A DNA stretch of 45,302 nt. It comes from Methylococcales bacterium (GTDB taxonomy: Bacteria; Pseudomonadota; Gammaproteobacteria; Methylococcales; Methylomonadaceae). The notes beneath the pieces were generated by a model, which was given only the letters and a program-made list of their open reading frames with translations, did not search any database and was not told the origin of the DNA. A program made the translations under genes and the position numbers. The stretch lies in contig JAQTXN010000003.1 in NCBI GenBank assembly GCA_028688755.1, positions 1 through 45,302 on the forward strand, given 5' to 3'. This document shows, piece by piece, positions 9,582-38,937 of this stretch (its first letter is position 1; each line of letters opens with the position of its first letter).

Positions 9582-10888
9582 AACTCAAACGCACCATCTA
9601 AACCATTGGCTTTCGCATCACGCTCTGAAAGAGGAAGTAGTTCAAAGCGATTTTCAATCAATTTCAAAATCGAAGTCGTGTCATAAAGTGTGTTATCGAC
9701 AAAACCTTTTTTCGCAAACGGTGACACGATAATTGCGGGAATGCGTGTTCCCGCTCCCCAACGGTCAAGTTGTGGTGGCGCAACGTGATCCCAAAAACCA
9801 CCGAATTCGTCGTAAGTAATGATAATCGCCGTTTTTTCCCAAATCGGACTGTGACGAATGGCTTCGACAATCTCTTTGATTTCCGCATCGGCATCTAAAA
9901 TGGTGGCATAACCTGGATGTTGATTTTTACTGCCAACGGGTTTGAAAAATGCCACGCTTGGAAAATGACCTTTTAAGTCTTCAAAAAGCTGCGTTTTGTC
10001 TTTTAAATGCTCTTTACGAGCCTGCGTATCGGGCGCGAAATTTGTGTAATAAACAAACGGTTGGTGGTGATATTGGAAATTATCGCCTGCATCTTTGTTT
10101 GCCATTGCATCATTCCACCCACCCGAATACCACGCCCATGAAATCCCTTTTTCTGAAAGTCTATCGCCAATGGTGGCGTGTGTTTGCGGTGGCAAACGAG
10201 TTTCATTGTGCGTTGAATCAAACGGCGGATAATGCGGTTGGATTGTTCCGACTGCATAATTGTCTGTTGTGACAGTTGGGTCTTTGGTGACTTTGCCTGT
10301 TTTGGTATCACTTTTCCATTTTTTTAATTCATCAGGTGCGTCTTTAAATTCGGGTGTGCAGGCACAAATTAACCATTGATGATTTAAAAATGAACCGCCA
10401 TAAGCCGCTTGAAAAAAATTGTCGGCGAGCGTGAATTCTTTTGCATATTGCCACAAGGCGGTTTGCGATAAATCGTAATGTCCCATCGTCAACGCGCCTG
10501 CTGAAGACAATTGTGCAAAACGATCATTTTTCCCGCCGTTAATTTGCATTTGATGAATAAAAAAACGGTGTGTTAAATCGGGATGTTTTTCAGTTAATGG
10601 AACGTAACGCGCAATATCAAACGGCTGATTGGGCAAATTTTCAGGAAAACGTTTATCAGAAACCGTCGGCAAGGTTGTGTAATCACGCCCAAATTCATCG
10701 ACTTGTAATGGTGCATTTTTTGCATTTTCTAAGCCGTTCGCATCGGGAAATAGACCAAATAAATTATCGAAACTGCGATTTTCAAGATACAGCACAACGA
10801 TGTGTTCAATGTCTTTTACGTCTTTTGCGGGAGCGGGCGTTGAAAAAATAGCGGTAATGGTTAATGCGAAAGCGGCAACTTTTTTCAT
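9578..10888 (-). CDS. Secreted phosphoesterase (phospholipase C / acid phosphatase AcpA-like)
   Basis: Signal peptide; IEHIVVLYLENRSFDNLFG, IIITYDEFGGFWDHVAPP, RIPAIIVSPFAKKG. Confidence 0.85.
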   Translation of the reverse strand: MKKVAAFALTITAIFSTPAPAKDVKDIEHIVVLYLENRSFDNLFGLFPDANGLENAKNAPLQVDEFGRDYTTLPTVSDKRFPENLPNQPFDIARYVPLTEKHPDLTHRFFIHQMQINGGKNDRFAQLSSAGALTMGHYDLSQTALWQYAKEFTLADNFFQAAYGGSFLNHQWLICACTPEFKDAPDELKKWKSDTKTGKVTKDPTVTTDNYAVGTIQPHYPPFDSTHNETRLPPQTHATIGDRLSEKGISWAWYSGGWNDAMANKDAGDNFQYHHQPFVYYTNFAPDTQARKEHLKDKTQLFEDLKGHFPSVAFFKPVGSKNQHPGYATILDADAEIKEIVEAIRHSPIWEKTAIIITYDEFGGFWDHVAPPQLDRWGAGTRIPAIIVSPFAKKGFVDNTLYDTTSILKLIENRFELLPLSERDAKANGLDGAFEF

Positions 10889-11451
10889 GATTGTACGGGG
10901 CGTTTATCTAATTTACGTTGAAGTGATCGACGGTGCATATTCAATGCCCGCGCCGCGGCAGAAATGTTGCCATCGTGTTGCATCAATACTTTTTGCAAAT
11001 GTTCCCATTCCAAGCGTTTTACCGAAAGCGGAATTTCACTAATGGCTGCGGATGTATCCCCTTCATTTTTAAGCAGTGCGGTGACGATTTCATCTGCATT
11101 AGCAGGTTTGGTTAAATAATGCGTTGCCCCTAATTTAATTGCTTCAACAGCTGTTGCAATACTTGCAAAACCTGTGAGCATCACAATTCGCGTGTTGTCA
11201 TCGAGCGAAATCAACTTTTTGACCAGTTCTAAGCCTGATTCCAAACCAATTCGTAAATCAATCACCGCGTATTCGGGTAAATTTTGTTCGGCAAGTTGAA
11301 TTCCCGAAGCCACATCATAAGCGACTAAAACCTCGTAATCGCGTTTTTCGAGGGCATTTTTTAACACGCTGCAAAACGTTTCATCATCATCAACAAGTAA
11401 TAAGCGTGGATTGTCGAGTTCTTCAGTTGCTGTCATTTTCTGTCTCATCAT
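10885..11451 (-). CDS. regA: RegA/PrrA/ActR-family response regulator
   Basis: REC domain plus Fis-type HTH GNISAAARALNMHRRSLQRKL, characteristic of RegA/PrrA/RoxR. Confidence 0.88.
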   Translation of the reverse strand: MMRQKMTATEELDNPRLLLVDDDETFCSVLKNALEKRDYEVLVAYDVASGIQLAEQNLPEYAVIDLRIGLESGLELVKKLISLDDNTRIVMLTGFASIATAVEAIKLGATHYLTKPANADEIVTALLKNEGDTSAAISEIPLSVKRLEWEHLQKVLMQHDGNISAAARALNMHRRSLQRKLDKRPVQS

Positions 11452-12805
11452 GTAATAGCGGTAATGTCAGTGTGACCTGTGCGCCGCCTTCATATCTATT
11501 TTCAAAGTCAATTGTACCGCCTAAACGTTGCAGGGTTGAGTAAGTTAAAAATAAGCCAACGCCTAAGCCTTGTTTACTGCTTGTCGTGGGATGTTGCCCT
11601 GCAAATTCAAGTAAATGTTCAGGAAAACCTGCCCCAAAATCCCGAATTTTAATCGTTGCACTTTGTTTATCCCAAATAGCGTGAAATTCCACGCCTAAAT
11701 CTGGATTGGTCGCTTCTGCCGCGTTATTTAAAATGTTAATTAGCGAATGCGTCAACGTGCGTTCAGCGATGATTTTTGCCTCAAAATCGACGTTGGGATC
11801 GATAAAAAAGTTTAATTTTGTGCCGACTTTGTGGGTGCGCCATTGCTTAATTACGTCATCTAAATAATCACTCAGTAACATGATGTTGCCTGATTCAGCT
11901 CGCATTTCACCTGCTGACGCTGACATTACCGATAAGGCTTCTTTGCAGCGATTGATTTGTTCTTCGATGATAGACATTTTTTCGTATAACTCAGGATGAT
12001 TGCAATACGCATAATCTTGAGTGAGTTCATGCGCGATAATTGCCATCGTGCCAAGCGGCGTTCCCATATCATGCGCGGCACTTGCGGCAAGCGTTCCGAG
12101 CGCGACAACTCGTTCATTTCGCAACGCATTTTCTCTTGCTTGTGCCAAACTGCGCTCACGAATTTTTAAGGTTTTAGCCAGTTCAACGACAAAAAACGCC
12201 ACTAAACCTGCGCTAAATACAAATCCAAACCACATCCCGAAAATATGTAAATTGAAATAATTTTTATCATTGAGCGTATGTTGCAATTCAAGCGCGTCGA
12301 GTTGCGACATTTGAGAGAAATCAATGTGCGAATTATGACTTAAATGCGGCGCAATCGAGGGCAGGGGGATGTTATAAACCATCAACATTGTGTACATCGA
12401 AGTTGTAAGTATCAACATGTACCACGCATAATTTGGCGGCAACATAATCGCGGTAATCATCAGCGGCAATAAATAGACCCAAATAATAGGATTCGACGCG
12501 CCACCTGTTGCGTAAAGCAATGCCGTGATGGCAAAAACATCAAGCGTAAGTTGCACAAAGATTTCTTGCGTGGTCACAGGCGTGGGTTCATCTAAACGCA
12601 GCCAAGTGTAGATATTTACCGCTGCAATACTTGCCACAATCCACCACAAAGGACGCTCTGGAAGTCCAATATGCAAACCGTGAACACTGAGAAAAATTAA
12701 AAAGGCTTCACTAAACAGCATGAGGTTTCGTAAAACAAATAGCCATTTTAGGTTTTGCCGAACGGATAATTCAGATTTAGTTGTGGACGTTACATGAGAA
12801 AACAT
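11423..12805 (-). CDS. regB: RegB/PrrB/ActS-family redox sensor histidine kinase
   Basis: Six-TM N-terminus with GGASNPI (variant of the GGxxNPF quinone motif), H-box AASAAHDMGTPLGTM, conserved Cys in INRCKEAL; overlaps regA. Confidence 0.88.
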   Translation of the reverse strand: MFSHVTSTTKSELSVRQNLKWLFVLRNLMLFSEAFLIFLSVHGLHIGLPERPLWWIVASIAAVNIYTWLRLDEPTPVTTQEIFVQLTLDVFAITALLYATGGASNPIIWVYLLPLMITAIMLPPNYAWYMLILTTSMYTMLMVYNIPLPSIAPHLSHNSHIDFSQMSQLDALELQHTLNDKNYFNLHIFGMWFGFVFSAGLVAFFVVELAKTLKIRERSLAQARENALRNERVVALGTLAASAAHDMGTPLGTMAIIAHELTQDYAYCNHPELYEKMSIIEEQINRCKEALSVMSASAGEMRAESGNIMLLSDYLDDVIKQWRTHKVGTKLNFFIDPNVDFEAKIIAERTLTHSLINILNNAAEATNPDLGVEFHAIWDKQSATIKIRDFGAGFPEHLLEFAGQHPTTSSKQGLGVGLFLTYSTLQRLGGTIDFENRYEGGAQVTLTLPLLHDETENDSN

Positions 12806-12928
12806 AAAAGTCGCATCAAAAGTTTAAGTTACGAATAGTTTAAAGAGATTTAACTTTGGAGGCGATTGTTTAGCCCATTTCTCGCAAATCTATATTTAGA
12901 AAAAACTATTAGATGTCTATGTTTAAAG

Positions 12929-12959
12929 TTAGACAGAAATAATTTCAATCTGCTAGAAT
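12929..12959 (+). promoter_or_regulatory. Candidate extended -10 promoter for the MerR-B12 operon
   Basis: TGCTAGAAT at 12951-12959 (TGn-TAGAAT); weak -35 TTAGAC at 12929 with a long spacer. Confidence 0.35.
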
Positions 12960-13038: not shown

Positions 13039-13944
13039 ATGTTTTCAATCAGTTTAGTTTCACGAGAAACAGGTATCTCAATTGCGACGTTGCGAAAATG
13101 GGAAACACGTTATGGTTTTCCAAAACCTGTACGACATAACGGTTACACCCGATCTTACAGCAAAGAAGATATTGCCTATTTACATGAAGTAAAACGTTTA
13201 ATTGATTTAGGAATGCGTCCATCAAAATTATTTTCAGTAACGCCGAGTGAATTTTCAGCTTTAGCTTTAACGCATCCCACAAGAGCCGTCACCCTAGAAC
13301 AAAAATTTATAGAAGATGTAATTGAATTATTGATTTCGCACGAAATTAAAAAATTACGCAAAATTTTAGATAAAAAATTAAAAAAACTTGGGGTATTAGA
13401 TTTTGTTGAAAAAGTTGCTCAACCATTAACTGTTTTGGTCGGACAAAAATGGGCAGATGGTGTCATTAGCATATTCACTGAGCATTGCTATAGCGAACAA
13501 ATGTCGCAAGTTTTAAACAGCGTCGAACCCGCTAATTTAAAATACGACGAAACGTTACCGCGCATTTTACTTACTACACTTTCAGGCGAGCGGCACACAT
13601 TAGGGCTGGATATGGTGAAAGCTCTTTTAAGCGAGCAAAAAGCACATTGCATCAATTTAGGTGCTGAAGTGCCGCTACTCGAAATTCCTCAAGCCGCGCT
13701 TCACTACAAAGTGAATGTCGTCGGCTTATCGTTTAGTGCTTCTTTTCCCAAACGAGCGATGACCGAATCACTCAAACAATTACGCCTCTCGCTCGCACCT
13801 GAGATTGGATTATGGATTGGCGGTTCAGGCGCAAAACAATTAGCAAAATTACCTAATGGCATTGAAATTTCTCATTCAACAGCAGAAGTTTTAGCGGTAT
13901 TTGAAAGTTATAAAAAAACACACGCTGTTATCGATTCATTCTAG
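13039..13944 (+). CDS. MerR-family regulator with C-terminal cobalamin-binding domain (CarH/LitR-like)
   Basis: MerR HTH ISIATLRKWETRYGFPKPVR; W-x9-EH (WADGVISIFTEH) and ExHxxG (ERHTLG) B12/photoreceptor motifs. Confidence 0.9.
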   Translation: MFSISLVSRETGISIATLRKWETRYGFPKPVRHNGYTRSYSKEDIAYLHEVKRLIDLGMRPSKLFSVTPSEFSALALTHPTRAVTLEQKFIEDVIELLISHEIKKLRKILDKKLKKLGVLDFVEKVAQPLTVLVGQKWADGVISIFTEHCYSEQMSQVLNSVEPANLKYDETLPRILLTTLSGERHTLGLDMVKALLSEQKAHCINLGAEVPLLEIPQAALHYKVNVVGLSFSASFPKRAMTESLKQLRLSLAPEIGLWIGGSGAKQLAKLPNGIEISHSTAEVLAVFESYKKTHAVIDSF

Positions 13945-13949
13945 GAAAA

Positions 13950-16916
13950 ATGTTTGTGAAAAAAAATCAAATCTCCGCTGTTATTCCTTTCGAAATAAAT
14001 TCTTTTACAGGTTACGTTGTTGGCATTGGTGCTTCTGCTGGTGGTCTTGATGCACTTGAAAAATTCTTTGATTTTTGCCCTGTTGATACGGGGGCAACGT
14101 TTGTTGTAATTCAACATTTATCGCCCGACCACAAAAGCATGATGAGCAATTTGCTCGCTCGTCACACGACAATGCCCGTTTGCATGGTTGAACAAAACAC
14201 CTCGATTGAACCCAATAATGTGTATCTAATTCCACCTGGTTCCATCATGCACATGGGCAAAGGTTTTCTGCATTTAACACCTAAAAATCCGCGCGGTTTA
14301 ACGCTTCCAATTGATATTTTCTTCACGTCACTTGCCGAAAGTTATGGCAATCATGCCATTGGTATTGTGCTTTCTGGCACAGGTTCAGACGGTACGCGCG
14401 GCGCATCAGCTATCAATTCGATGGGCGGTTTTTTACTCGCGCAAGAACCCAGCACTGCGGGTTTTGATGGAATGCCTAAAAGTTTTATCAACACGGGTTT
14501 AATCGATGCCATTTTGCCGCCCGAAGAATTAGCGAATCGTGTTGTCGCACACATCAATCATTTGGCCTCAAATGAACCCGAAATTTACGTCGAAAATGAT
14601 GCGTTTATTCCCCGTCTTGCGCTATCACACGAAGAAGCCTTTAACGCGATTATGCAGTTGTTATTGCAAATTAGCGGAATCGATTTTAAAGATTACAAGC
14701 CTTCTACAATTATGCGCCGTTTGGAGCGTCGAATGCAGGTGCGGCGCGTTTCAACGCTTGAAGATTATTTGAAATTACTCGAAACCGAAAACAGCGAAAT
14801 TTTCACGTTACGGCAAGAATTCTTAATTTCTGTCACCAGTTTTTTTCGAGATACTGAACCGTTTAAAACGCTCACAGAATGCGCGGTTGCTGAAATTGTG
14901 GCGAGTAAAAATAACGGTGATATTGTCCGAATTTGGACGGCGGGTTGTTCAACTGGTGAAGAACCTTACACGCTTGGAATGCTCTTTATTGAAGAATTTG
15001 AACGCCAAAAACGCTGGTTGACACTCAAAATTTTTGCGACCGATGTGAATCAACAAAATATCGAATTTTCAGCCATTGGCAGTTATAGCGAATCCATTGC
15101 AGCTGAATTAAGTCCTGCGCGTTTAGAACGATTTTTTGACGTGAAAGGCTCGAATTTCGTTGTTAAAAATGATTTGCGTCAATGTATTATTTTTGCGCGG
15201 CATAATTTGTTGAGTGACCCACCTTTCACCAAAACGGATTTGGTGGTTTGTCGAAACACGCTAATTTATTTTAAAAATCCTGCTCAAGAACGTGCATTGC
15301 GTCGTTTGCAATATGCCGTCAATCCACAAGGCTTTTTATTTTTAGGTTCTAGCGAATCGCTGTCAGGGGCAAATGAAGGTTTTAAAACGATTAACGCGAA
15401 ACACAAATTGTTTAAGCGCATCACCTCGGCAACGCCTGTTCCTTACGATATGTTGCAAAATGTTTCAACAGCGTATCAAACAGGACGACATGCGTCGTCG
15501 GTTTTAGTTTCACAAAAAGCGAAAAGTGTTGATGGTAACGCCATTGATAGTGCAATCAGTATGATGCTCAACAGTTACGCCCCACCTGCGCTTATCGTAA
15601 ATGGCAATCATGAAATTCTGCATTTTTTCGGCGATGTTCAGCCGTATTTATCGTTTCGAGAAGGTAGCGCAAGTTTGCAAATCGGACGTGTTTTACCACA
15701 ACGTTTGATTCCGATTGCTTCTGCACTGCTTTATAAAGCTGCCAAAAGCACAGAAATACTCATCTCTGATTTGATTCAATTCAAACAAGCCGATGATTCA
15801 ATAAAATTGATTCGTTTGAGTGCGCGTCAAATTTCACTCAAAACGCATGAACCATTCATATTGTTGTGTTTTGAAACCATCACAAATAACGTTGCTGAAA
15901 TTGAAACCAAAGCCTTCAATCTGGACGCAGAAACCATTGAACGAATTGAAATTTTAGAAAATGAACTCGCCGCAACGCGCGAAAGTTTGCAAGCGACCAT
16001 TGAAGAACTCGAAACTTCAAACGAAGAATTACAAGCCACAAACGAAGAACTCATGGCTTCAAATGAAGAATTACAAAGCTCAAACGAAGAATTGCAATCG
16101 GTCAATGAAGAACTCAACACGGTTAATGCCGAATACCAAGAAAAAGCAGGTATTTTAAGTCAGCTCAATGCAGATTTAGACAGCATGGCAAAAGCCTCGG
16201 GCGTAGCAACGATTTTTGTTGATGAAGAATTGCGATTAACCCGTTTTAGTCAAGACGCGATGCAAATTTTCAAATTACGCAATTCCGATATTGGGCGGCG
16301 TTTAGACGATTTCGCCCATACGCTCAAATATGAACATTTAATTGAAGATATTGAAGCGACGTTGCAATTGCAACGCATGACAGAACGTGAAATTTTATCT
16401 AACGACGGACGTACATTTTTAGTACGAATTTTGCCGTACTTTGTTCCATCGACCATGTCAAAAGGTGTAGTTGCCAGTTTTGTTGATATTACCTCGTACC
16501 ACGATGTGCAACGTTTGCAATCTATTATTGATGCGCTACCTGAACATATTGCCGTGTTAGAACATGACGGAAAAATTGCAATGATTAACCAAGCGTGGCA
16601 GCGATTCGCTAAAGCAAATGGCGATACTAATCTTACGCATACGGGCATTGGTACAAATTATTTTGAAGCATGCAAAGTGAGTAATCTTGAAAATTCAGAA
16701 ATCGCACAACGCGCTATTCACGGCGTAAAAAGTGTTCTCGAAGGTTCAAACGCCGAATTTTCGTTGCAATATCCTTGTCATTCACCAACCGAAAACCGTT
16801 GGTTTGTGATGAATGTCGCGCCGATTAAGGGCTACGATTACGGCGCGGTTGTCAGTCATATCAACATTTCCTCTTGGTATGCAAGTAACGAAAAAAAGGA
16901 AGCCGAACGTGAATAA
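13950..16916 (+). CDS. CheB methylesterase-CheR methyltransferase-PAS fusion
   Basis: Che[37 protein letters not shown]; Che[29 protein letters not shown]; coiled-coil; PAS-like C-terminus. Confidence 0.92.
16002..16127 (+). repeat. Six 21-nt coding tandem repeats (heptad coiled-coil EELxxxN)
   Basis: [42 protein letters not shown], encoded by GAAGAAYT.. units. Confidence 0.9.
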
Positions 16917-19517
16917 TGCTCAAAATCATCATTTGAAAGAGTTGCGTCATCGCGCCGAAGTTGCCTTGCAAAACGGTGAAATTGCATTGCAACATATTCC
17001 CGATGAAAAAGCGTTACACGATGCCCGCGAATTGATTGAAGAACTCCGTATTTATCAAGCTGAATTAGAACTTCAAAATGAAGAACTGAATCGTTCACAA
17101 CTTCAAGCAGAGCAAGCCTTAGCGCGTTATCGATTGTTATTTACCTCGCTGCCACTTGCGGGCGTGGTATTGGACAGATACGGCATTATTCAAGATGCCA
17201 ATATTCATGCGACGAATTTATTTGGATTTAGCACAGATTCAAAATTACTCAAACATTCCATTTATCGTTTAATTGCTGACGAAGACAAAAATCGGATTCT
17301 GGGTGTTTTGCATTTAGAAAATAGCGGCACAACAACGATTTTGCATGAAATAAAAGTGCGAAACTCAAATAACGAATGGATTGTCATGGATGGGCATTTG
17401 ATTCATTTGCCGCTCGATTATCATTTAGATAATTACACGTTGTTATTGCTAGTTGATCGCAGTATTGAAGCGGCGCGTGAGCAAGACAGAATGCTGTTTC
17501 AATCAATGTTTGATAATAGTCCATCGATAATGGTCGCTTTTGATGAAAAAGGTCATTGCATCCTCGCAAATAGCGCGATGCTCAAGTTTGTCAATAGCTC
17601 TGTCGAACACGTTTTGGGTAAAACGCGCAACTCTTGGCAAAATTCAGTCGATGCAAAAACGCTGCAAGAAAAAGATTCTGAAGTGATTGCAACAGGAAAT
17701 CCTTCGCTTGAAGAAGAATTACTTTCAGGTAATAACCAGCCAAAACATCATTACATTAGCAATCGTTTTCCTTTGCGAAATAAAAACGGTGATATTTTTG
17801 GCGTAGGTTTAGTGAAAACCGACATTACCGCGATTCGAGAAATTGAAGTGCGCTTGCAACTTGCGATGCAAGTTTTCAGTCAAGGCTCAGAAGGCATCAT
17901 TATTACGGATTCAGAAAATAAAATTATTTCGGTGAACAAAGCGTTTGAGCGCATTACGGGCTACAGAGAAAAAGACGTTTTAGGGGAAAACCATCAATTT
18001 TGGCATCGGGAAAACAAGATAAACATTTTTACGAGAGAATGTGGCGTGATTTGCTTTGTTATAACGAATGGGAAGGCGAACTTTATAATCGTCGCCAAAA
18101 CGGAGAAATCTATCCACAACATTTGAGTATTAGCCGCGTTCTTGATGATCAAGATAATTTGACTTATTACATTGCAATTTTTAATGACATTACGCATAAA
18201 AAACGCATTGAAAATGAAATTCATCAATTGGCCTTTTATGACCCGCTTACAGGCTCACCTAATCGCCATTTATTGCGCGACCGTCTAAATCAAGCAATCA
18301 ACGTTGCACATCGTGAAAATACACAACTTTGTTTAATTTTTCTCGATTTAGATCGCTTCAAAGAAGTCAACGACACATTAGGTCACGGTGCAGGAGACGA
18401 CTTGTTAATTGAAGTCGCACAACGTTTAAAAAATTGTGTGCGTGATGTCGATACGGTTTGCCGCTTTGGTGGCGACGAATTTATTTTGTTGTTAAACGAT
18501 ATAAACGAAAAAACGGTGATTGAAAAAGCGCAAACGATTTTGGCGACGGTTTTAAAGCAATATGTGATTCAAAATGAAGTGTTGACGTTATCCGCCTCAA
18601 TTGGCATTGCCATGTATCCGCGTGATGGCGAAGATTATGCGACGTTATTAAAAAATGCTGATACTGCAATGTATGGTGCAAAAGAAAATGGACGCAATGC
18701 GTTTCGTTTTTATCAGGCAGAACTTGATGGATCAACAATGCGCCGCATGGTAGTTGAAAACGCATTGCGCAATGCCATTGAAAATAACGAGTTGTGGCTT
18801 GCGTTTCAGCCGCAAATTTGCATAACGACTAAAAATTTAAAAGGCGTTGAAGTGTTGTTGCGGTGGAATAATGAAACGTTAAATCATCCTTCACCAGATG
18901 AATTTATTCCCATTGCTGAAGCAACAGGTTTGATTGTGTCAATTGGTGAATGGGTGTTAAAAGAATCGCTCAAACAAGCAAAATTGTGGCTTGACGCAGG
19001 ATTAGAACCTTTCACGATTGCGGTGAACATTTCAGCACGACAGTTTTGGAATGAAAATTTTTCAAGTTTTGTTCACTCTTCGTTACTTGAAACGGGCGTG
19101 CCTCCGCATCTGCTTGAACTTGAATTAACCGAGCGCGTTGTCATGCGCGAACCTGAAGCGATCATTGACATCATGAATGAGCTTAGTTTGCTGGGGGTGA
19201 AAATTTCCATCGATGATTTTGGTACGGGTTATTCGTCGCTTAATTATTTAAAACGCTTGCCTGTGACGAAATTAAAAATTGATCAATCATTTGTACGCGA
19301 TATTGAAAGTGATAATGACGACGGGATTATCGTATTGTCGATCATTCAACTCGCTAAAGCCTTAGGTAAAGAAACGATTGCCGAAGGCGTTGAAACGCTT
19401 GGGCAAGAGTTATTTTTATTTGAAAATGGTTGTGACACGATTCAGGGCTTTTTGCACGCTCGCCCGATGGCGATTACTATATTCGAATCATGGTTGGATA
19501 AAAAATTGTGTGAGTAG
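16909..19517 (+). pseudogene. PAS-PAS-PAS-GGDEF-EAL diguanylate cyclase/phosphodiesterase interrupted by an apparent 1-nt frameshift near 17998-18001
   Basis: GTG start at 16909 with AAAAAGGAAG upstream; frame 1 runs to 18126 but PAS homology stops at ...VLGENHQF; homology resumes in another frame as ASGKQDKHFYERMWRDLL; RFGGDEF, I-site RDVD, EVL, DDFGTGYSSL, AEGVET motifs downstream. Confidence 0.8.
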
Positions 19518-19521
19518 CATT

Positions 19522-21483
19522 ATGAACGAATTAAGGTCTATTTCTGTTTTGCTTGTTGAAGATGAAGCGGGGGACGCTTATTTAGTGAAAACAACGTTAA
19601 AACAAAACTCCGATATTACTTTCAACGTGCAGTGGGTTGAATCGCTTGAATTAGCAAAACAGGCTTTAGCCATTTCACATTTTGATGTCATGCTGCTCGA
19701 TTTATCGCTGTCTGATTCGCAAGGTTTAAATACTATCAAGTTCGCTCGCAAAATCGATCCCGAAATCCCCATCATTGTTTTAACGGGCAGAGTAGATATT
19801 GACTTTGCATTAACTTCTTTAAAGGCAGGCGCGAGCGATTACATCCTTAAAGATATTGTACAAAGCAGCATAAATACTTTGTCGCGTGTTATTCGTTACG
19901 CTTTACTTCGCGTTGAACTTGAAAAAAACAATCAACTCCTTTCAGCGGCAAATTTAAGTTTAGATTTACTGCATTCGTTAGATCACACCACCATTATTTC
20001 TGAAACAAATTTAAACGGAGAATTTACCTTTGTGAATTCGGAATTTTGCCGTGTTTCAGGTTATAGCGCAGCCGAATTACTTGGTACAACGCCGAAAATT
20101 GTTTCTTCGGGCGTGCATTCAAAAGAATTTTATTTGCGTCTTTGGTCAACGATTAAAAGTGGTCGCGTGTGGTCGGGTGAAATTTGTAATCTCAACAAAG
20201 CAGGTAAAAAATATTGGATGCAAACCATTATTTTGCCTGTTCATCCCCATAACAGTGAAGGTACTTATTTCTACAAATATGCCATGGTTGGGCTTGATAT
20301 TACCGAAAAGAAAAACCACGAAATGGCTATGGAACAACGCGCCGCGCTTTATGAAGCGGCAATTGAAACTACTGATGGTTTTTGCCGCATCAGTAGCAGC
20401 GGAAATTTCTTAGAAGTCAGTGATGGTTATTGCAAACTCTCTGGCTACAGTCGTGAAGAATTACTTAACATGAACATTTTAAAAATGGCAGGCGATTTTG
20501 CTTTAAGTTTGCAGCAATTTAGCCAAATTATTCAAGGGAACGGCAAAACCTTTGAAACTCAGCAACATCGAAAAGATGGCAGTTTGTGGATCGCTGAAAT
20601 TACCGCGTCATATTGCTCTACTTTAAATGATAGTAGTGTATTCGTTTTTTTGCGTGATATTACGCAGCAAATGGAAATGCAAAAACGGGATCGAATTTTG
20701 CGTGACCAACTGATTCAAATGCAAAAAATAGACAGCATTGGTCGGCTCACAGCAGGTATCGGACATGATTTTAATAACATTTTGACAAGCATTTTAGGCT
20801 TTAACGAAATGAATAAAATCATTATCGATGAGGATATTCAAGATGAAAATATCAAAATGCTGTTAGATCAAAATTTAGAACATGTTGCAGTTGCTGGTAA
20901 ACGCGCTGTTGAGTTGATTGCAAAAATGATGAACTATTGTCGTCAAAACACGGCACCTGTTGAAATTGAACAAATTGAACTTAAAAAACCAACGCGCAAA
21001 ATTATCGAAGAAGTCGTTGAAATGGTGCGAGCAGGCTTGCCTAAAAAGATAACTATTGAATTAGATTTAAACGATACACCACCAATTTTTATCGATCCAA
21101 TTGATTTACATCAAATTATGACGAATTTACTCGTCAATGCGCGTGATGCGATGAAATCAAACGGAGGGGTTATCAAAGTGAAATTGGCGGTTGTAAATAT
21201 CCTCACTTATCCTTGTGCGGCGTGTTTGAAACCTGTTGAAGGTGGATTGATTGAATTAAGCGTGTCAGACAGTGGCACAGGAATTGATAAAAAAGTGATT
21301 GAAAAAATCTTTGATCCATTTTTTACCACTAAAGCGGTTGGTGAAGGTACAGGGCTTGGATTATCAACGGTTAGTGGCATTGTGCATCATGCTCACGGAC
21401 ATATTTTGATTGACTCTGTACTCAGTGTAGGAACAACGTTTAGATTACTGTTTCAAAAGGATCCAATGACTGAGAAAGGATAA
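19522..21483 (+). CDS. REC-PAS-PAS-histidine kinase
   Basis: [13 protein letters not shown]...[13 protein letters not shown]...VLTG REC; two PAS domains; [17 protein letters not shown]-box; [24 protein letters not shown] at 19522 preferred over the 19378 start. Confidence 0.88.
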
Positions 21484-37929: not shown

Positions 37930-38404
37930 GTTTCCCATGTTGAAATGGTTGTGGCTTGCGTTTTTATCGCTCGGTTTAGACCAAGCCAGCAAAATCGCCA
38001 TTGATAAAACGTTTGCGCTTTATGAATCGATTGCGATTGTGCCGTTTTTTAATCTCACTTACGTTCACAACACAGGCGCAGCGTTTAGTTTTCTGAGTGA
38101 AGCAGGTGGTTGGCAACGTTGGTTTTTCGCAGCGTTGGCAATCATCATGAGTACGATTATGACGATTTGGCTCACAAAATTAAAAGAACACGAAACGTTA
38201 CTCGCTGTAGCGTTATCGCTGATTTTAGGTGGCGCGATTGGTAATTTAATTGACCGCCTCGCTTATGGTTATGTAATTGATTTTCTCGATGTCTATTACG
38301 GCACTTATCATTGGCCTGCGTTTAACATTGCCGATTCAGCGATTACGATTGGCGTGGCGTTGATGCTCGTGGATTCGTTTAAGTCTCAGGGAAAAGAGGC
38401 ATGA
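37922..38404 (+). CDS. lspA: Lipoprotein signal peptidase
   Basis: [69 protein letters not shown] at 37922. Confidence 0.95.
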
Positions 38405-38937
38405 AATCTCGCGACCGCCGTCACGGTTTAACAGTCGTCAATACAGGCGAAGGCAAAGGCAAATCATCCAGCGCATTCGGCATGGTGTTTCGCGCCGCAG
38501 GTTGGGACATGAATGTTTGCGTAATTCAATTCATCAAAGGGCAATGGCAAACGGGCGAACAAAAAGCCGCCCAACGTTTTGACAATATCGAATGGCACGC
38601 GCTTGGCGACGGTTTTACTTGGGACACCAAAAATCCTGAGCAAGACATTAAAACTAGCCGTGAAATTTGGGAATTTGCCAAAGAGCAGATTTTGTCGGAA
38701 AAGTTTGATGTGGTGTTGCTTGACGAAATAAATTACTGTTGCGGTTACGGTTGGATTTTAGGGCAAGAAGTTGCTGATTTTATTACCCAAGAAAAACCAC
38801 CGTGGTTGCATTTGATTTTGACAGGGCGAAATGCCTCGCCCGAAGTAATTGCCGTTGCGGATACCGTGACCGAAATGACCAAAGTGAAACACGTTTTTGA
38901 AACAGGCGTGAAAGCAGAGCAGGGCATAGATTTTTAA
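38401..38937 (+). CDS. cobO: Cob(I)yrinic acid a,c-diamide adenosyltransferase
   Basis: GLTVVNTGEGKGKSSSAFGMVFRAAGW P-loop and VVLLDEINYCCGYGW. Confidence 0.93.
   Translation: MKSRDRRHGLTVVNTGEGKGKSSSAFGMVFRAAGWDMNVCVIQFIKGQWQTGEQKAAQRFDNIEWHALGDGFTWDTKNPEQDIKTSREIWEFAKEQILSEKFDVVLLDEINYCCGYGWILGQEVADFITQEKPPWLHLILTGRNASPEVIAVADTVTEMTKVKHVFETGVKAEQGIDF

Follow-up and report, generated by a model that had tools for sequence, protein, structure and literature searches.

The window analyzed here, a stretch of 45,302 nucleotides, is contig 60 of a 2.72-Mb metagenome-assembled genome (MAG; G000) in 240 contigs. Four genes follow one another on its plus strand. The first (13,039–13,944) encodes a CarH/LitR-like MerR-B12 regulator of 301 aa, the second (13,950–16,916) a 988-aa protein joining CheB, CheR, a coiled coil, and PAS (Pfam CheB_methylest, CheR_N, CheR, and PAS_10), the third (16,909–19,517, with a GTG start at 16,909) a protein with three PAS domains followed by GGDEF and EAL, and the fourth (19,522–21,483) a 653-aa REC-PAS-PAS-histidine kinase, as assigned by Pfam. 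The genes are separated by a 5-nt gap, an 8-nt overlap, and a 4-nt gap, respectively. The order, coordinates, single strand, and near-zero spacing are those described in the first-pass annotation of this DNA, as is the identity of the first gene, whose MerR_1, B12-binding_2, and B12-binding domains all score above the Pfam cut-offs.

Ahead of the first gene lies a candidate sigma-70 promoter (12,930–12,959, plus strand), which agrees with 10/12 consensus positions: a −35-like TAGACA, an 18-nt spacer, and a TG-extended −10 element, TAGAAT. The −35 box is at the same time the right arm of a candidate operator, the dyad TGTCTA-N10-TAGACA (12,914–12,935, plus strand). The divergent neighbor on the minus strand (11,423–12,805) encodes a RegB/PrrB/ActS-like kinase (NCBIfam NF033792, 202.8 bits against a cut-off of 350) and is given as context only; it forms part of a RegA/RegB-like redox two-component pair (10,885–12,805), both members of which fall below the NCBIfam cut-offs for ActR/PrrA and ActS/PrrB. 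Also as context, a BtuR/CobO cob(I)alamin adenosyltransferase is encoded at 38,401–38,937 on the plus strand (PF02572 at 38,422–38,934, E 4.8e-63).

The signaling proteins carry catalytic motifs. In the 988-aa protein, a single chain holds a CheB methylesterase domain, CheR_N and CheR, and PAS, with the CheB catalytic motifs GASAGG, QHLSPDH, and GTGSDGTRG and a CheR motif; the Pfam scan agrees with the earlier description of these methylation enzymes as lacking a REC domain. We refer to this fusion as CheBR. The kinase has the motifs HDFNN and NLLVNARDA. The third gene encodes an RxxD I-site, GGDEF, and the EAL-type motifs EVLLRW, DDFGTG, and AEGVE, so its annotated domains and catalytic motifs are present; it is not the single intact gene first described, since it is split here into two open reading frames in different frames (16,909–18,126 and 18,000–19,517). 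Aligned with an intact, 899-aa orthologue from a Methylococcaceae MAG of the same genus (G017), it shows a one-base gap near 17,992–17,998. Comparison with that orthologue shows strong purifying selection on the GGDEF-EAL half (dN 0.073, dS 0.96), which argues that the frameshift is a recent lesion or an assembly error; the latter could apply because the genome is a MAG of 240 contigs. The best NCBIfam match of the third protein, searched as a partial protein, is the phosphodiesterase DibA, below the cut-off. In the same comparison with G017, dN/dS is about 0.19 for the MerR-B12 gene and 0.05 for CheBR, so the regulator is changing much more quickly than its partner.

Does this arrangement recur in other genomes? 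The first-pass annotation had set conservation of the neighborhood beforehand as a test of its proposal, and we found the grouping in G017, in an uncultured proteobacterium MAG of the same genus (G008), in an Azonexus MAG, and in G574. The order MerR-B12, CheB-CheR-PAS, PAS-GGDEF-EAL is kept in G017, where it is spread over two contigs, and in G008. CheBR orthologues adjoining a MerR-B12 gene are 94% (G017), 86% (G008), 63% (Azonexus MAG, over 974 aa), and 58% (G574) identical to the window protein; the regulators themselves are 73% identical in G017, 55% in G008, and 34% in the Azonexus MAG. In that MAG, identified by a contig scan, the regulator gene overlaps CheBR by 4 nt and a gene for a PAS-HK-REC protein comes next. 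G574 has the full triad, including PAS-GGDEF-EAL. The genes are tightly spaced or overlapping in all five loci, and recurrence in this order across genomes is more than chance. The conserved core is MerR-B12, CheB-CheR-PAS, and a PAS protein with a variable output, shared by three methanotroph and two Rhodocyclales-type genomes. The REC-PAS-HK gene adjoins this core and is best treated as a neighbor outside the conserved unit: contrary to its first description as an operon member, neither G017 (L077) nor G574 (L150) has it behind the third gene, while the G008 contig breaks off within that gene and is uninformative on the fourth.

Among 101 relatives surveyed, the MerR-B12 type or its B12 part occurs in only 4/18 genomes of the genus. 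The CheBR subfamily was found in 8/200 genomes of the Azonexus family and is rare, occurring, at the threshold used, in 4/369 sampled genomes of the class and 3/399 of the Azonexus order. Where subfamily members have no MerR-B12 gene, the next gene mostly encodes a PAS protein with a GGDEF-EAL or kinase output, so that CheBR and the PAS output protein form the core proper and MerR-B12 a recurrent front piece. One such copy is the second CheBR of G017 (68%; L076, C71, 1–6122), which comes after REC-REC, LuxR-type regulator, and PAS-HK genes and ahead of the gene for the PAS protein. Conversely, none of 38 other MerR-B12 loci from the class and phylum samples (with longer flanks for 11) has CheBR beside it. 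We found no plasmid-borne copies of the unit; the closest plasmid CheBRs are from Azospirillum (42%), and the one checked has no MerR-B12 gene nearby. The divergent neighbor in G017 and G008 is an M48-type peptidase gene (named from sequence) rather than RegBA, which indicates that the unit has changed its genomic place; for the same reason, we rejected RegBA as a component of the system.

In the methanotrophs the promoter region is conserved along with the unit. Common to the three methanotroph operons is TGTCTA-N10-TAGACA with identical arms, one variable base, and then AAATAATTTCAATCTGCTAGAAT. Within this 46-bp block 42/46 positions are invariant in the three genomes, against 69/165 aligned columns outside it, and the block is kept though the genes upstream differ. 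The exact dyad, with no mismatch, occurs once per genome in all three genomes with the operon, always at this promoter, and in 0/15 congeners. Because the promoter block is conserved despite differing upstream genes and the dyad is unique to the operon genomes, the MerR-B12 protein probably regulates its own operon through this candidate operator. One-mismatch counts in the search for further targets did not exceed a reversed-pattern control, so no wider regulon can be claimed, and no cobalamin riboswitch or other known RNA was matched by Rfam in the window. The dyad TTTGTC-N14-GACAAA lies upstream in two LitR-type relatives (G360 and G249; L124 and L125), with arms and spacing identical to those in G017 and G008; at L124 the MerR-B12 gene adjoins a lycopene cyclase gene. 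At the Azonexus and G574 loci, the dyads present are of the looser form GTC-N13-GAC.

Where did the regulator come from? In the MerR-B12 tree, the five linked proteins group with three proteins of the genus that lack the helix-turn-helix (HTH) and with an unlinked protein from G312 (92/89), nested in a clade with betaproteobacterial LitR-type regulators (100/97); the Azonexus and G574 branches are long, and their exact placement is unsure. Placing the regulator beside the CarH of its host family costs 136 log units (p-AU 2.7e-6), so that inheritance of the regulator within that family is rejected; forcing the family's CheBRs into one group costs 318 (p-AU 7.6e-8), so CheBR does not follow the host family either. 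A single clade of linked and HTH-less MerR-B12 proteins was not rejected (p 0.30). Because the regulator groups with betaproteobacterial LitR-type proteins and not with the CarH of its host family, the tree suggests horizontal acquisition; horizontal transfer, as one gain with losses or as repeated transfer, is the simplest reading. The MerR-linked CheBRs do not form a clade (p-AU 3e-4), which rejects a single, vertically inherited CheBR-MerR unit and, together with the absence of MerR-B12 from most CheBR-subfamily loci, is what would be expected had a mobile regulator gene come to rest ahead of a CheBR/PAS pair by happenstance, with no functional link. We consider such an accident very improbable: it sits poorly with tight spacing or overlap in five loci, with an arrangement kept while its upstream neighbors change, with a promoter block and unique dyad conserved along with the unit, and with the lack of CheBR beside any of the 38 MerR-B12 loci sampled elsewhere.

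What does the regulator sense? Among known structures, CarH is closest by sequence (phmmer E about 2e-20), at about 28% identity to the Thermus thermophilus protein (TtCarH), and the twelve best Protein Data Bank matches of an AlphaFold2 model (pLDDT 84) are all full-length TtCarH (including 5c8d and 5c8e). Full-length TM-scores are 0.44–0.6, with a different placement of domains, while the B12 domain alone reaches a TMt of about 0.8. Pfam and the full-length fold both give a MerR HTH followed by B12-binding_2 and B12-binding; the latter (PF02310) scores 38.8 bits against a cut-off of 32.1 in the window protein and falls below the cut-off in G574. Residues W138, E148, H149, and H186 correspond to W131, E141, H142, and H177 of CarH, its adenosylcobalamin (AdoCbl) contacts, of which H177 is the lower ligand, and are invariant in 5/5 operon-linked proteins. 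AdoCbl itself can be made, by prediction, because BtuR is encoded in the window; the methanotrophs lack the PduO adenosyltransferase. With a CarH fold, the four residues kept, and BtuR in the same window, the AdoCbl sensing first proposed from the sequence is plausible.

Sensing of light is a different matter. In Thermus CarH, His132 forms the bis-His light adduct, and an H132A variant stays mostly tetrameric after illumination, although an earlier report of H132A CarH disassembling is noted in the same study (PMC10442372). The window protein has Ala139 at this position, which reads A/S/S/Q/A across the five linked proteins; its NCBIfam CarH score is 103.5 bits against a cut-off of 400. We therefore describe the protein as CarH-like in predicted ligand pocket and architecture and do not file it as CarH. 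The position also varies among relatives, many of them from light-type clusters (several of the nearest unlinked relatives lie with photolyase, lycopene cyclase, or FAD-oxidoreductase/CFA-synthase-like genes), and His132 may not define the wider CarH/LitR class. The title of Takano 2016, as listed among the references of PMC9758184, describes a light-domain histidine as "semi-conserved." Given these relatives and that title, the absence of His132 weakens the case for light sensing without removing it. With the AdoCbl contacts kept and His132 lost, AdoCbl sensing appears better supported than CarH-type light switching. The same autoregulated operon might then answer to a cobalamin-level or redox sensor that reads AdoCbl supply, light having no physiological role, as the replaced histidine in all five linked proteins and the largely blocked light-driven disassembly of H132A CarH (PMC10442372) would suggest. 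We think this rather unlikely, as a CarH-type pocket would not be expected to keep AdoCbl from being photolabile and relatives in light-type gene clusters lack the histidine too.

The reading that we favor, as somewhat more probable than its competitors taken together, is an autorepressor that depends on AdoCbl and that, once released, lets CheBR and the c-di-GMP enzyme rise, so that B12 or light status resets c-di-GMP signaling. The MerR-B12 protein would bind TGTCTA-N10-TAGACA at its own promoter, where the dyad overlaps the −35 box, and would most likely act there as a repressor that needs AdoCbl rather than as an activator. Loss or photolysis of AdoCbl would release it, and expression of CheB-CheR-PAS and PAS-GGDEF-EAL would go up. 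Gene order and its recurrence in two lineages, the conserved promoter and unique dyad, the AdoCbl contacts, the fold, and the catalytic motifs are seen in the sequence; binding of the dyad by this protein, its ligand, repression, light as a natural trigger, and the direction of any change in c-di-GMP are inferred. Counting against this autorepressor are the replaced His132, the subthreshold B12 domain in G574, the low NCBIfam CarH score, the looser Rhodocyclales dyads, and the frameshift in the window's c-di-GMP gene.

Related B12 modules also occur without a DNA-binding domain. In G008, an HTH-less B12 protein (216 aa, 42% identical to the window regulator, pocket residues kept) is encoded with REC and PAS-PAS-HK-REC proteins (L036, C130, 3553–6640), and the latter shares 52% identity with the fourth protein of the window. 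G014 has two more, each after a PAS-HK-REC gene and with pocket residues partly lost (L037, C188, 1563–7652; L038, C17, 1827–4982); genes at the three loci encode PAS-HK-REC, REC, or MCP-like proteins. As a lead, this suggests that the B12 module may also serve as a direct kinase partner. The coupling to phosphorelay output raised by the first-pass annotation gains circumstantial support from these paralogues, which adjoin PAS kinases in G008 and G014; the window's own kinase, as noted, lies outside the core. Other B12 genes were seen in passing. In G1065 a MerR-B12 gene directly adjoins a gene for a PilZ-domain c-di-GMP receptor (L192, 1438–3430), a possible B12/c-di-GMP link. Related MerR-B12 genes on a Comamonas endophytica plasmid (L166) and in G312 (L121) are flanked by methyl-accepting chemotaxis protein genes, the former with a BLUF gene as well. 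The window's genome also holds an apparent corrinoid methyltransferase cluster, named from sequence (L086, C65, 8679–12,570), in the order reductive activase-like, corrinoid protein, UroD-like methyltransferase, and hybrid kinase.

A broader reading, which we put forward tentatively and as possible rather than probable, is that CarH-type B12 domains are general signaling inputs in the methanotroph genus and Rhodocyclales. With an HTH they would gate the CheB-CheR/c-di-GMP operon; without one (G008:C130, G014:C188, and C17) they would contact PAS kinases, so that B12 or light would act on c-di-GMP and phosphorelay by way of CheB-CheR, pigment genes playing no part. CarH and LitR are best known for switching carotenoid and photoprotective functions. 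That two unrelated lineages of bacteria share the grouping suggests a role for B12 or light in setting a lifestyle signal here, rather than in pigment production. If true, B12 photobiology or B12 sensing would extend to lifestyle decisions; the orphan CheB-CheR-PAS family would gain a first testable input, with an exact candidate promoter and operator; and in aquatic methanotrophs attachment or motility could be tied to daylight or to the supply of cobalamin.

How does the unit compare with known systems? With CarH and class I LitR, the AdoCbl photoreceptor-repressors of T. thermophilus and Myxococcus xanthus, it shares three domains, AdoCbl contacts, and fold, as well as a candidate dyad over the −35 box of the regulator's own gene, here predicted from sequence. 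It departs from CarH in the low overall identity, the replaced His132, and the subthreshold NCBIfam score, and its operon encodes CheB-CheR and c-di-GMP enzymes rather than carotenoid or photolyase functions. The betaproteobacterial LitR-type regulators are the closest relatives by tree and have the TTTGTC/GACAAA upstream sites; they are 32–38% identical, their genes adjoin FAD oxidoreductase, DUF1365, CFA synthase, photolyase, or lycopene cyclase genes, and none checked is linked to CheBR.

The class II LitR protein PmlR2 of Pseudomonas mendocina likewise lies beside a PAS-superfamily signaling protein, PmSB-LOV, with which it interacts directly (PMC9758184). By that precedent of adjacent genes, the MerR-B12 protein could act independently of B12, as a DNA-binding effector of its PAS partners, much as class II LitR works with a short LOV anti-repressor; CheBR and the third protein both carry PAS, and the PAS part of the third gene is kept while its output domain varies. 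We judge this improbable. PmlR2 has no Rossmann B12-binding domain, and its partner is a short LOV protein rather than CheBR or GGDEF-EAL (PMC9758184), whereas that domain and its histidine are present in the window protein, whose partners are multidomain proteins with PAS domains, none recognized as LOV in the Pfam scan. Photocobilins resemble the preferred autorepressor in that B12 domains control outputs other than pigment genes, but their B12 domain forms one chain with a bilin-binding, globin-like domain, while here it belongs to a separate DNA-binding-type protein in an operon (PMC10979010). B12 domains occur in more complex architectures, for which experimental evidence is scant (PMC10979010).

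Other CheB-CheR-PAS fusions, annotated as "chemotaxis protein CheB," have an identical architecture, with paralogues across the host family, and the Azospirillum fusion is followed by a PAS protein, as in this operon; what sets the present subfamily apart is its place downstream of MerR-B12 in five loci. Searches of the open-access literature, pairing B12-binding with CheB, CheR, PAS, or MerR and CarH with c-di-GMP, turned up no description of such a system, in agreement with the first-pass annotation. The parts are known, and their stable combination with its own candidate operator appears new to us.
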